Part shown: positions 45,668 to 50,333 of the stretch, piece by piece
Layout: each line of letters starts with the position of its first letter
How positions within the stretch are numbered: position 1 is the stretch's first letter
Assembly: GCF_039566955.1 (NCBI RefSeq)
Contig: NZ_CP154796.1
Location: 6,572,001 to 6,636,000, forward strand
DNA: 64,000 bases
Direction of reading: 5' to 3'
DNA from: Micromonospora sp. DSM 45708
GTDB lineage: Bacteria > Actinomycetota > Actinomycetes > Mycobacteriales > Micromonosporaceae
Notes under the pieces: model-generated
Told to the model about the DNA's origin: nothing
The model's database searches: none
What the model saw: only the letters and a program-made list of their open reading frames with translations
Position numbers and translations under genes: made by a program

Positions 45668-45722
45668 GCGTCAAGCGGGGCGCCCACCTCTACCGAATGC
45701 GTTAAGCGGGGCCCCCGCCTTT
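45668..45722. repeat. Tandem GCGT(T/C)AAGCGGGG repeat in a convergent gap
   Basis: Units GCGTCAAGCGGGGCGCCC (45668-45685) and GCGTTAAGCGGGGCCCCC (from 45699) are direct repeats; the second is self-complementary (GCGGGGCCCCCGC). The motif is shared with 30275-30324. It probably acts as a terminator for both convergent genes. Confidence 0.6.
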
Positions 45723-48700
45723 CACATCAACCGGAGCTGGTGGTCCTTGGGGCGGCGCGGCTCGGCGGTGCCCAGCCGGTCGAACAGGGCCGGGTCGATC
45801 GCGTCGAGGAACGGGGTCGGGCGGGTGTCCCGTTCCGCCCCGTGCCGGCTGCGCCGGGCGGCGTGACTCACGTAGAGCCGGTCCTGCGCCCGGGTCAGGC
45901 CGACGAAGAAGAGCCGGCGTTCCTCGGCCACCGCGTCGTCGTCCGGCTCGGTGCCGGGCCAGCGCAGCGGCAGCAGGCGGTCCTCGGCGCCGACCAGGAA
46001 CACCACCGGGAACTCCAGGCCCTTGGCGGCGTGCAGCGTGAGCAGCGTGACCGCTTCGGCGCGCGGGTCGAGCGCGTCCACCTCCGCGCCGGTGGCGAGC
46101 TGGTTGAGGAAGAGCCCGAGGTCGTCACCGCAGCGCCGGGCCAGCGGCGTGAGCAGGTCCACGGCCGTGCGGACGTCGTCGGGGCGTACCGCGCCGGAGC
46201 CGTCGAGCGTGGGCACGGCGAAGCGTTCGGCCACCAGCCGGCCGGCCTCGCGTACCCGGGCGGTCAGGGAGCCGTCGAGACCGGCGTGCCGCAGCTCGCG
46301 GGCGATGGCCGCGACGCCCGGACGGTCCCGCAGCCGGTTGTGCGAGCGCTTCTGCACCGGGATGTTCGCCCGGGTCAACGCGTCCACGATCGGCGCCGCC
46401 TGGGAGTCGGTGCGGTACAGCACGGCGATGTCGGAGAAGGAGAGCGTGGTCGTCCGCCCGTCGATCCGCCCCGAGTCGAGCGACCGGTGGGACAGGCCAC
46501 CGACCAGCTCGTCGACGGTGCGGGCCACGAAGTCCGCCTCGTCGGCCACCGAGGTCGCGGCGTACCGGCCGACCAGCGGCGCCTCCGGGTCGAGCCGGGC
46601 CGGGTCGAGCCGGCGGCCCCGGACCAGCGACGACGGCGCGATGGCCTGCACGGCGGCGGCCAGGATCGGTGCGGAGGAACGGTAGTTGCGATTCAGCCGG
46701 ACCAGCCGGGCGTCGGTGAAGTCCTGCGAGAAGCGCAGGAAGTAGCCCACGTCGGCGCCCCGGAACGAGTAGATCGCCTGGTCCGGGTCGCCGATCGCGC
46801 ACAGGTTGCCGTCCGCCGGGCTGAGCAGCCGCAGCAGCTCGTACTGCACCGCGTCGACGTCCTGGTACTCGTCGACGAAGATCCACTTCCACCGCTCGCG
46901 GTACTCCCGGAGCAGCTTCCGGTCGCCCTTCAGCACCGCCACCGGCAGCGTGAGCAGCTCGTCCAGGTCGACCAGGTCCCGCTTGCGCAGCAGCGCCGCG
47001 TAGCGGGCGTCGTCCTCGCCGGCCTCGGCCCGGGCGGCCGTCCGGTCCGCGTCGTCGGCGATCCGGAATTCCGCCGGCAGCCCGGCCGCCTCCGCGTTCT
47101 CCCGCAGGATGGTCAGCCCGAGTGCGTGGAACGTGCCCACCGTGACGTCCTCGGCGACCGGCCCGAGCAGCGCGTCGAGGCGGTGCCGCAGCTCCTCGGC
47201 CGCCCGGCGGGTGAACGTGATCGCCAGGCACTGGTCCGGGAAGACGTTCAGCTCCGCGCAGAGGTAGGCGATCCGGTGGGTCAGCGTGCGGGTCTTGCCG
47301 GTGCCCGGACCGGCCACGATCAGCAGCGGGCCACCCGGCGCGGAGGCGGCCACCCGCTGCATCGCGTCCAGCCGGTCCAGCAGGCCGGTGCCGACCTCCT
47401 CCATGCCGGCGAGCATCGGCTCGAACGGCTCGTGCGGGGAGGGCGGCGGCGCCAGCGGCGGCGCGGGCGGCTTGCGCTTCGGCTCCGGCCGGACCGCCGC
47501 CGGGCGCTTGGCCTTCGGCTTCGGCGCCGGCTCCGCGGGTCGCCGTTGTGCGGGCACGGGTACGTCGAACAGCGTCTCCTGCCCGGCCCCGCCGCCCGAC
47601 GCGCCCAGTTCCGCCGGATCGAAGAGCGTGATCACGCCGTACTCGCCGTCGTAACCCGGCACCCGGCGGACGTCGCCGCGACGCAGCCGGCCGATGCCCT
47701 CCGCGAGCAGCTCGCCGCCGACCCGGCCGATCTCCTCCACCGGGGTACGGGTGAGGATCTCCAACTCCGGGCCGAGCGCCGCGACCAGCTCGTTGAGCTT
47801 GCCCTCGACCTTCTTCGACCGGGCGCCGACCTTGTTGATCTCGCCCAGGATCTCGGCGAGCGGCACCAGGTGGGCCACCTCGCGGGCGTGCGCCGGCCGG
47901 TGCCCCGCCGGCCGGTCGGCCAGCGCCTCGACGCGGCTGAGCACACCCACGGTCAGCGGCTTGCCGCACTCCGGGCAGCGTCCGCCCGCCTCGCGGGTCC
48001 GCTCCGGCGGCCAGTTCACGCCGCAGAGCCGGTGCCCGTCGGCGTGGTACTTGCCCTCCTCGGGGAAGAACTCGACGGTGCCGGCCAGCCCGTCCCCGGT
48101 GCGCAGCGCCTCCCGGATCGCGAAGTAGTCGCGCTCCGCGGTCAGGACGGTGGCCTCCCGGGCCAGCGCCGGCGGCGAATGGGCGTCCGAGTTGGACACC
48201 AACTGGTAGCGGTCCAGGCTGCCGACCCGCCAGTTCATCTCCGGGTCGGAGGAGAGCCCGGTCTCCACCGCGAAGATGTGCTCGGCCAGGTCGGCGTAGC
48301 AGTCGGCGATCGCGTCGAAGCCCGACTTCGAGCCGAGCGCGGAGAACCAGGGAGTCCAGATGTGCGCCGGCACCAGGAAGCCGTCCCCGCTGGCCTCCAG
48401 CGTGATCTCCAGCAGGTCGCGGGAGTCCAGCCCGAGGATCGGCCGGCCGTCCGAGCCGAGGTTGCCGATCCGGCCCAGCGCGGCGTTGAACCGGCCCACC
48501 GCGTCCAGGTCCGGCAGGTAGATCAGGTGGTGCACCTTCCGGGTCCGGTCGTCCCGCTTGTAGATCGTGGAGATCTCCACGCTCAGCATGAACCGGACCG
48601 GGTCCGCCTCCGCCTCGCTCGCCAGCCGGGGCGGCAGCCGCCGGGCGATGTCCCGCTCCGCCTCCGGCGACAGCCGGTAGAGGCCGGGCTCGGCCGGGTG

Positions 48701-48904
48701 CAGCGTCTCGCGCAGGTGGTCGTACCAGGCGGGGTGGGTGAAGTCGCCGGTGCCGAGCACCCCGATGCCCTTGCGCCGGGCCCACCGGCCGAGGTTCGGC
48801 AGGGTCAGGTCGCGGCTGCACGCGCGGGAGTACTTCGAGTGGATGTGCAGATCCGCGACGTAGGGCGGGAGGCCACCGGGGGGTGCGGCACTGAACGGAG
48901 GCAC
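45722..48904 (-). CDS. EndoQ/TIGR00375-type PHP nuclease fused to a UvrD-family helicase
   Basis: 1060 residues. Residues 15-440 form a PHP-type nuclease of the EndoQ family: VADLHIHSKYSRA (His20, His22), MLSVEISTIYK, VHHLIYLP, VPAHIWTPWFS, VSNSDAHS and a zinc site CGVNWPPE ... CPECGK near 293-315. A Lys/Pro linker (about 450-490) leads to a complete superfamily 1 helicase: GPGTGKTRT (about 532), TFTRRAAEEL, DEYQDVD (about 677), IGDPDQAIYSFRG, NRNYRSS, TLHAAKGLEF and FVGLTRAQDRLY. EndoQ cuts 5' of deaminated bases, so a nick-and-unwind repair enzyme is a reasonable inference. I chose GTG 48904 with AGGA upstream; GTG 48919 is also possible. Confidence 0.9.
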   Translation of the reverse strand: MPPFSAAPPGGLPPYVADLHIHSKYSRACSRDLTLPNLGRWARRKGIGVLGTGDFTHPAWYDHLRETLHPAEPGLYRLSPEAERDIARRLPPRLASEAEADPVRFMLSVEISTIYKRDDRTRKVHHLIYLPDLDAVGRFNAALGRIGNLGSDGRPILGLDSRDLLEITLEASGDGFLVPAHIWTPWFSALGSKSGFDAIADCYADLAEHIFAVETGLSSDPEMNWRVGSLDRYQLVSNSDAHSPPALAREATVLTAERDYFAIREALRTGDGLAGTVEFFPEEGKYHADGHRLCGVNWPPERTREAGGRCPECGKPLTVGVLSRVEALADRPAGHRPAHAREVAHLVPLAEILGEINKVGARSKKVEGKLNELVAALGPELEILTRTPVEEIGRVGGELLAEGIGRLRRGDVRRVPGYDGEYGVITLFDPAELGASGGGAGQETLFDVPVPAQRRPAEPAPKPKAKRPAAVRPEPKRKPPAPPLAPPPSPHEPFEPMLAGMEEVGTGLLDRLDAMQRVAASAPGGPLLIVAGPGTGKTRTLTHRIAYLCAELNVFPDQCLAITFTRRAAEELRHRLDALLGPVAEDVTVGTFHALGLTILRENAEAAGLPAEFRIADDADRTAARAEAGEDDARYAALLRKRDLVDLDELLTLPVAVLKGDRKLLREYRERWKWIFVDEYQDVDAVQYELLRLLSPADGNLCAIGDPDQAIYSFRGADVGYFLRFSQDFTDARLVRLNRNYRSSAPILAAAVQAIAPSSLVRGRRLDPARLDPEAPLVGRYAATSVADEADFVARTVDELVGGLSHRSLDSGRIDGRTTTLSFSDIAVLYRTDSQAAPIVDALTRANIPVQKRSHNRLRDRPGVAAIARELRHAGLDGSLTARVREAGRLVAERFAVPTLDGSGAVRPDDVRTAVDLLTPLARRCGDDLGLFLNQLATGAEVDALDPRAEAVTLLTLHAAKGLEFPVVFLVGAEDRLLPLRWPGTEPDDDAVAEERRLFFVGLTRAQDRLYVSHAARRSRHGAERDTRPTPFLDAIDPALFDRLGTAEPRRPKDHQLRLM

Positions 48905-48998
48905 GCCGCATCCTGTCACGTCCGCTTGCCTACCCGCCCGCCGCCACGCGTACGCGTGACCTGAGCAATGCGGTGCTGGACTGCGCGCCCCCGACCCG

Positions 48999-50333
48999 CT
49001 ATGGGGCACGCAGCTCGACGAGCGTCACCTGCGGCGGGGCGCCGACCCGCACCGGCGGCCCCCAGAAGCCGGCCCCGTTGGTGACGTAGACCTTGGTGCC
49101 GTCCACCTCGCCCAGACCGGAGACCACCGGCTGCTGGAGCTTCACCGCCAGGTTGAACGGCACCATCTGGCCGCCGTGGGTGTGCCCGGAGAGCTGGAGG
49201 TCGACGCCGAACTTCGCCGCCTCGTGCGCGGCCACCGGCTGGTGGGCCAGCAGCACCACCGGGCGGCTCGGGTCGCGGTCGCCGAGTGCGGCGGCGTAGT
49301 CGGCGGGCGCGGCCAGCCCGGTGCCGTCGGCGGTCACGTCGTTGACGCCGGCCAGGTCCAGCACGCCACCCCGGGCCCGGATCTCCTGCCGTTCGTTCTG
49401 CAGCACCCGCAGGCCGAGCCGGTCCACCTCGCGGACCCACTCCTCCACGCCGGAGTAGTACTCGTGGTTGCCGGTCACGAAGAAGCTGCCGTAGCGGGAG
49501 CGCAGGTCACGCAGCGGTTCGGCCGCCCTGCCCAACTCGGCCACCGAGCCGTCGACCAGGTCACCGACCACTGCCACCAGGTCGGCGTCCAGTCGGTTGA
49601 TCATGGCGACGATGCGCTCGGTGTGCGCCCGGCCGCGCAGCGGCCCGAGGTGGATGTCGGAGACGGTCGCGATCCGCAGCCCGTCCATGCTCCGCGGCAG
49701 CTTCGCCAGCGGAATACGCACCCGGTCCAGCCGGGGCGGTCCCATCGCGGTGCGGACGCCGTAGCCGGTGACACCGGCGGCGGTGAGCCCGGCGAAGATC
49801 GCCGCGCCGCGCGCGAGCAGCAGCCGGCGGGACTGGTCGTGGTCCGGCATCACGGCGTCGGCCGGGGACGATTCACCGGTGTCGGCTCCCGCGGGCGTGT
49901 CCCCGGTGTCGCCCGACGGCGACGTGTCGTCCGCGGTGCCGGCCGGTGACGTGTCGTCGGCGTCCACCGTCGGGGACGCGCTGCCGGCGCCGACCAGCGC
50001 CGGCTCCGGCGTCGGGCCGGTGGCCGACAGGGCCCGCCGGCGCAGGACGAGCCGCGCCACCGCGGTCGGCACCTCCAGCACCAGCAGCAGCACCAGCAGG
50101 TAGAACATCAGGGCCAGCCACAGGTAGCCCGGCCAGGCCAGCCAGTAGAAGCCGTTCTGGGTACCGGCCATGGTCGCCGGCACGAGCAGCACGAGCAGGA
50201 TCGCCACCACCGCCCCGACCCGGCGGGCACGCCCCGGGCGGGTGGTGTCCCGGACCAACCGTCGCCACAGGTAGTAGTGGATCAGGCCGATGACGAGCAC
50301 GACGAAACCCACGAATGTCGCCATCGCCAGCAC
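48999..50333 (-). CDS. Membrane metallophosphoesterase
   Basis: 444 residues. Three membrane helices (about 1-100) are followed by a variable Asp/Thr/Ser/Pro linker with DDTSPAG-type repeats, another hydrophobic segment after SRRLLLARGAA, and a calcineurin-like phosphoesterase domain: SDIHLGPLRGR, GDLVDGS, GNHEYYSG, LLAHQP and SGHTHGGQ. These supply the two-metal site. The family includes YkuE-like enzymes acting on lipid-linked phosphates; the substrate here is unknown. The GTG at 50333 has GGAGG six bases upstream, better than the ATG at 50324. Confidence 0.88.
   Translation of the reverse strand: MLAMATFVGFVVLVIGLIHYYLWRRLVRDTTRPGRARRVGAVVAILLVLLVPATMAGTQNGFYWLAWPGYLWLALMFYLLVLLLVLEVPTAVARLVLRRRALSATGPTPEPALVGAGSASPTVDADDTSPAGTADDTSPSGDTGDTPAGADTGESSPADAVMPDHDQSRRLLLARGAAIFAGLTAAGVTGYGVRTAMGPPRLDRVRIPLAKLPRSMDGLRIATVSDIHLGPLRGRAHTERIVAMINRLDADLVAVVGDLVDGSVAELGRAAEPLRDLRSRYGSFFVTGNHEYYSGVEEWVREVDRLGLRVLQNERQEIRARGGVLDLAGVNDVTADGTGLAAPADYAAALGDRDPSRPVVLLAHQPVAAHEAAKFGVDLQLSGHTHGGQMVPFNLAVKLQQPVVSGLGEVDGTKVYVTNGAGFWGPPVRVGAPPQVTLVELRAP

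Follow-up and report, generated by a model that had tools for sequence, protein, structure and literature searches.

Can a nuclease directed at deaminated bases and the motor needed to clear the cut strand be combined in one bacterial protein? The question was raised by a gene in a 64,000-nucleotide stretch of Micromonospora sp. DSM 45708 (contig NZ_CP154796.1, positions 6,572,001 to 6,636,000; the whole stretch is called the window here). The gene is a single open reading frame (ORF) of 1060 codons at 45722..48904 on the minus strand, with a GTG start at 48904 and AGGA 6 nt upstream; an alternative in-frame start is possible at 49009, and the alignments of distant relatives to the window protein start around residue 15. 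The listed segment of the gene is 47615..48904 on the minus strand. A preliminary description of this DNA had proposed an EndoQ-type nuclease and a superfamily 1 (SF1) helicase in one polypeptide, and this was confirmed: the protein is conserved, the active-site residues are kept, and the predicted folds of the two halves match EndoQ and SF1A helicase structures, respectively. No account of an EndoQ-helicase fusion was found in the open-access literature searched, which agreed with the earlier statement that the fused form has not been characterised biochemically. Judged from its sequence, the protein appears to be a new variant of EndoQ-type repair, clamp-tagged and with a trimmed helicase; the clamp-type C-terminal motif and the breadth of the family are absent from the preliminary description.

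Nuclease half of the fusion protein

PfuEndoQ was found by a PDB search with the window protein (E 1.4e-43), and the PfuEndoQ structure was matched over 381 of 398 residues by the predicted structure. In the alignment, H8, H10, D42, E76, H84, H85, H139, D193 and H195 of PfuEndoQ corresponded to H20, H22, D54, E110, H125, H126, H181, D240 and H242, of which we take those other than E110, H125, H181 and D240 to be metal ligands, H20 being a PHP ligand. The catalytic E76, H84, H139 and D193 were thus all kept (E110, H125, H181 and D240), and the selector residues G169 and S171 were aligned by eye with G216 and S218. These positions lie within residues 18-242 (48179..48853, minus strand), and each was conserved in at least 98.5% of 77 family members, a count that omits L070 and L074 owing to the start pattern used to pick rows. 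According to a review, E76A, H84A and H139A each abolish PfuEndoQ activity, and normal bases are excluded by H139, G169 and S171 (PMC8307549). The Asp matching D193 has been reported as essential from mutation of the Methanosarcina enzyme (PMC6202378), and the PfuEndoQ chains 7k30 and 7k31 carry Asn at this position.

The preliminary description had considered the PHP nuclease complete, including its zinc site. The PHP residues were indeed kept, but a substitution in the zinc site had been missed: C249, C252, C268 and C271 of PfuEndoQ aligned with H291, C294, C310 and C313 (residues 291-313, 47966..48034, minus strand), the first Cys being replaced by His. H291 was shared by no fewer than 98.5% of the 77 rows and by at least 90% of the members in a 40-member alignment. 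Since His is a common zinc ligand, the H291/C294/C310/C313 site is still likely to bind zinc. The nuclease half matched TIGR00375 (NCBIfam) at 149.8 bits, well below the cut-off of 326.6; in a control of 14 genomes three were matched by the model, two of them above the cut-off. We therefore used the label EndoQ-type rather than strict family membership, on account of both the Cys-to-His change and this score. The protein resembles EndoQ (PfuEndoQ 5zb8 and 7k30; TIGR00375, COG1379) in the PHP site, the essential and selector residues, the place of the zinc domain and the C-terminal clamp-type motif, and differs from it in these two features and in its fusion to a helicase. No Pfam match was obtained in the first 500 residues (E up to 0.1), so the fusions are probably listed merely as helicases.

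These departures bear on the substrate. An EndoQ-like fold and chemistry might have been redirected to another lesion or structure that the motor presents, such as flaps, oxidised bases or ribonucleotides. The low TIGR00375 score, the change of C249 to His, a 7-residue insert ahead of the HH motif relative to PfuEndoQ, and the presence of UDG and EndoV in the same genome all fit such a shift. Nevertheless, we consider it quite unlikely, as the selector residues equivalent to H139, G169 and S171 are kept, the stand-alone EndoQ L011 has the same His at the C249 position, and the EndoQ of Bacillus pumilus is reported to nick DNA containing uracil, hypoxanthine or abasic sites (PMC8438529).

Helicase half and linker

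The helicase half (residues 506-1045, 45770..47389, minus strand) was matched by PF00580 and PF13361 in Pfam. The key residues of the segments to which we assign the SF1 motif names, namely I (AGPGTGKT), Ia, Ib, II (DEYQD), III (GDPDQ), IV (NYRS), V (TLHAAKGLEF) and VI (EERRL..VGLTRA), were conserved in at least 98.5% of the 77 rows. The NCBIfam equivalog cut-offs were not reached for pcrA (365.3 against 911.2) or uvrD (292.9 against 1144.45).

The description of the helicase as full did not hold. Among 57 family members, the spacing between motifs Ib and II had a median of 87 residues (60-133) compared with 132 in the PcrA-like protein of the same genome, and that between IV and V had a median of 211 residues (184-310) compared with 285. 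We take these stretches to hold subdomains 1B and 2B; the family medians would then fall short of the PcrA-like protein by about 45 residues in 1B and 73 in 2B. In the alignment of the window protein with PcrA, 13 versus 57 and 56 versus 130 residues separated the aligned stretches. The shortening of both stretches indicates that the helicase is trimmed. According to a 2026 review, UvrD-type monomers are autoinhibited by 2B, and Rep becomes active once 2B is deleted (PMC13238157). With 2B naturally shortened in most members, the fusion family lends itself to the study of what this subdomain does in helicases of the UvrD type.

Compared with UvrD, PcrA and Rep (4c30, 1pjr and 9dci), the window protein has shorter 1B and 2B stretches and an N-terminal EndoQ, and in the helicase tree the fused helicases grouped apart from the PcrA-like and UvrD2-like proteins of the window genome. 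Like AdnAB, AddAB and RecB, which were among the structure matches, it is an SF1A motor covalently joined to a nuclease. In those enzymes the nuclease is a C-terminal RecB-type domain acting in double-strand break repair, whereas the window protein has an N-terminal, lesion-type PHP nuclease.

The two halves are joined by a low-complexity linker (residues 437-505, 47390..47596, minus strand) that is predicted to be disordered, with a predicted local distance difference test score (pLDDT) below 50. The corresponding stretch (query residues 426-512) varied from 54 to 159 residues among relatives. QETLFD sits close to the start of the linker and is possibly a relic of a stand-alone EndoQ C-terminus.

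Predicted clamp-binding motif at the C-terminus

The window protein terminates in QLRLM (residues 1056-1060, 45725..45739, minus strand), a predicted beta-sliding-clamp-binding pentapeptide. The loose motif Q[LIMFV]xL[FLMIVWY] was found within the last 12 residues of 72 of the 77 complete relatives, 24 of which carried a strict QLxLF, while only 0.35% was expected from shuffling of their own tails, and it was found in 14 of 872 flanking ORFs, many of which are spurious. The five non-matching tails were of the QQRLF, QRTLF, QDSLF and QMSFDF types or had QLTLF some residues inward. Q1056 and L1059 were invariant across the 40-member alignment, and no clamp-type motif was found in the tails of the PcrA-like and UvrD2-like proteins of the window genome.

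The stand-alone EndoQ L011 terminates in QLSLL, and in the fusion the motif follows the helicase. Past the EndoQ half, 21 of the 77 rows carried an internal Q(x)xLF-type motif, which may have been left over from the C-terminus of a stand-alone protein. Stimulation of Thermococcus kodakarensis EndoQ by PCNA is reported to need the C-terminal PIP box, and a C-terminal beta-clamp motif has been noted for bacterial EndoQ homologues (PMC4858679).

Distribution, phylogeny and selection

A whole-protein scan of genome contigs gave at least 583 relatives, and the best 80 were used for locus counts. All 80 aligned across both halves, and in 79 the matched stretch was one ORF (two of these, L055 and L069, end at a contig edge), L035 being broken; the scan favours fused proteins because the fusion was the query. 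By record titles the best 80 loci span ten phylum-level groups, several of them represented only by metagenome bins. The known range of EndoQ-type enzymes thereby becomes much wider than Bacillus and Desulfovibrio, the bacterial cases mentioned in the literature consulted. The nearest named relative among the loci fetched was from Micromonospora humi (94.6% identity over 1060 residues).

In the 7.02 Mb single-contig genome of the window, the fusion gene was the sole match to the EndoQ half. EndoQ was detected in 127 of 150 genomes sampled from the same family, in 68 of 298 sampled at the order level and in 7 of 396 at the phylum level, so that it is frequent in the family but patchy in the rest of the phylum. 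Of the 127 positive genomes of the family, 120 had frames of at least 979 aa (fusion being judged by frame length), five had frames cut at contig ends and two had stand-alone forms.

In the EndoQ tree, the fused proteins grouped apart from the stand-alone L011 and L158 and from PfuEndoQ (support 93/95), these three being long branches, and Actinomycetota formed one clade (99/93). Nested inside that clade were the stand-alone L110 and L111 (100/100 together, 100/89 with a fused relative), and this position among fused proteins indicated loss of the helicase there. In the helicase tree of 35 rows, 23 fused helicases and three mini-helicases grouped against nine other SF1 rows (94/98). The trees of both halves fit one origin of the fusion. 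Distances in the two halves were correlated across 61 members (r 0.89), and the nearest neighbour was shared in 36 of the 61. Against six relatives, the ratio of nonsynonymous to synonymous substitution rates (dN/dS) ranged from 0.09 to 0.23 in the EndoQ half and from 0.14 to 0.28 in the helicase half, and reached 0.19-0.47 in the linker; both halves are under purifying selection. The fusion is real, apparently old and present in many bacterial groups.

Searches of 72,556 plasmid and 50,697 phage records at E 1e-5 gave no match to the EndoQ half, and the 13 viral loci found matched the helicase half only. This bears on an anti-phage role, in which the fusion would act as a nuclease-helicase much as Gabija does, with uracil-containing phage DNA as one conceivable target. 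GajB and DRT-helicase models did match the helicase half, and an antiviral role for Bacillus EndoQ has been raised in a review. The best GajB score (230.9 bits), however, was below that of the pcrA model, so that the match reflects the shared UvrD fold. Together with the lack of plasmid and phage matches, the frequency of EndoQ in the family and the metallophosphoesterase gene upstream in Micromonosporaceae (see below), this made a defence role highly improbable, although no search was aimed at neighbouring defence genes. Gabija itself is defined by a GajA partner with an OLD/TOPRIM nuclease. In both sequence and fold the nuclease within the window protein is of the EndoQ type, with no TOPRIM domain in Pfam; no search was aimed at a separate GajA gene.

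Several side observations were made among these loci. The fusion of Rhodococcus rhodnii (L058) was almost identical to that of Kibdelosporangium philippinense (L057), through either recent transfer or a mislabelled assembly. The fused gene L161 (G562) was interrupted in its helicase half, by either decay or sequencing error. L078, L079, L081, L083-L090 and L092-L094, from Endomicrobiellum, Gastranaerophilales, two Alphaproteobacteria-type bins and unnamed bins, clustered at 100/100; the named members sampled had 30-43% GC, and transfer among gut communities would perhaps account for the cluster.

Proposed mechanism

We regard it as moderately probable that the fusion, as a single polypeptide tethered to the clamp, initiates an alternative form of excision repair. 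Its QLxLF-type tail would dock the protein on the beta clamp, and the EndoQ half would recognise a deaminated base or abasic site, flip it out and cut on its 5' side, so that a 3'-OH and a lesion-bearing 5'-phosphate end remain. The helicase half, with its 2B brake cut down, would then load at the nick and move 3'-to-5' on the intact strand, so that the lesion-bearing 5' end would be peeled into a flap and replaced through polymerase, flap nuclease and ligase. After a 5' cut the lesion sits at the 5' end. A motor that starts at the nick and travels 3'-to-5' along the intact strand would peel this end away, whereas travel along the cut strand would displace the wrong side. We infer the activities of the window protein, their order, the strand choice and the clamp contact from reports on homologues, namely 5' incision at uracil, hypoxanthine and abasic sites, clamp stimulation of archaeal EndoQ and 2B autoinhibition in Rep and UvrD. 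In the literature, removal of the lesion-bearing end after EndoQ is only a proposal, by flap cutting or by a 5'-3' exonuclease. The path of nicking and then unwinding, already suggested in the preliminary description, is plausible and was kept as the best reading; the C-terminal motif and the shortening of 2B make the mechanistic case stronger than before.

The scheme follows the outline of MutH/MutL/UvrD mismatch repair, in which a nick is made and UvrD-type unwinding proceeds from it. The fusion is not a member of that system, being one polypeptide with a different nuclease; as MutL is reported to activate UvrD, the fused nuclease and the clamp could set the strand choice. A wider proposal, to which we give somewhat less than even weight, is that the family constitutes a widespread, unrecognised bacterial pathway for deaminated bases, in which one clamp-riding protein finds, nicks and unwinds as MutH, MutL and UvrD do, and in which the trimmed 2B puts the motor under the attached nuclease instead of dimerisation. 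With cutter, motor and clamp tag joined across ten phylum-level groups, the lesion-removal step becomes testable with one protein.

The order of events could also be reversed: the helicase would open the duplex or ride single-stranded DNA near the fork and feed the EndoQ half, acting as a scanning machine instead of nicking and peeling. The clamp-type motif suggests a site near the fork, and PfuEndoQ is reported to be more active on uracil and hypoxanthine in single-stranded DNA, which fits unwinding before cutting equally well; its highest activity, on the other hand, is on an abasic site in duplex (PMC11354406). Cutting a template while it is single-stranded would break it. The present results agree with either order, and we hold this one to be unlikely.

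Besides the single-strand preference, several results weigh against nicking followed by unwinding from a clamp. The fused L070 and L074 (Alphaproteobacteria bins) start with VDVQIHS and thus have Gln at the H20 position, and the C249-to-His change could alter the pocket. Some relatives are untrimmed in 1B or 2B (up to 133 and 310 residues). Clamp binding by the tail peptides is a motif prediction, and the 77 relatives are not independent, as many close Micromonospora are included. In the predicted structure the mutual placement of the two halves is uncertain (predicted template modelling score, pTM, 0.53) and the C-terminal tail is modelled at low confidence. Neither tree grouping (93/95 or 94/98) reaches the starred mark of the tree tool, and two EndoQ halves without a fused helicase persist in genus g246.

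Genomic context and other repair genes

A metallophosphoesterase gene lay directly upstream in 35 of 36 loci of Micromonosporaceae genera, and moaA was nearby in 34 of the 80 loci. A conserved operon across phyla was rejected: synteny was seen only in Micromonosporaceae, and no specific neighbour was common to phyla with the crude ORF picking used. Among the 25 largest flanking-ORF clusters, two generic ones (response-regulator-like and ABC-transporter-like), with six loci each, crossed phyla. A damage promoter was likewise considered, with patterns that we take to represent LexA-like and PafBC-like promoters. LexA-like motifs were found at 15 of 73 loci and PafBC-like at 1 of 73 within about 300 bp upstream, counts that lack a shuffle control and were not used, and neither motif was found near the window gene.

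The window genome contains EndoV and four UDG-superfamily matches, so that the fusion would be an added route and not a substitute. In the family, UDG-superfamily matches (E up to 1e-10) occurred in 145 of the 150 genomes; the remaining five were all EndoQ-negative. By hand tally, full-length-type EndoV (E up to 1e-30) was found in 83 of 127 EndoQ-positive and 19 of 23 EndoQ-negative genomes (102 of 135 matched genomes). Replacement of UDG or EndoV by EndoQ was thus not supported, as they co-occur and no clear difference in EndoV was seen. In the other 33 of the 135, Endonuclease_5 was matched only weakly (E >1e-30) and for the most part incompletely, at about profile positions 17-144; these matches possibly represent a shortened EndoV relative.

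The earlier suggestion that high GC content favours such a system was dropped: 14 of the 80 loci were below 45% GC, down to 30%, and the fusion coexists with UDG and often with EndoV.

Stand-alone EndoQ proteins, mini-helicases and an antisense frame

L158 (G684) and L011 (G275) are diverged stand-alone EndoQ-type proteins of Actinomycetota. By eye, L158 has His at the second zinc Cys position (HREHG...CPVC), and L011 as translated is without the usual DLHIHS start, perhaps through a frame problem.

A search for a separate helicase in genomes with stand-alone EndoQ yielded a mini-helicase of about 350 aa, which was present in 15 of 15 genomes searched of genus g246, 81-100% identical to the query (L164-L169; examples at G463:C4:185779-186831 and G479:C10:46925-47980). 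At E 1e-12 it matched nothing in the window's genome but the fused gene, and it fell inside the fused group of the helicase tree on a very long branch. By eye, Walker A (SPGTGKT) was kept, but DEYQD, the Gln of GDPDQ and motif V were not. Of these genomes, G542 had a fused-length EndoQ frame, two had stand-alone EndoQ and twelve had none.

Opposite the fusion gene, an antisense ORF of 1074 aa extends over 45740-48964 of the window on the plus strand; it is likely an artefact of the very high GC and is relevant to automatic annotation.

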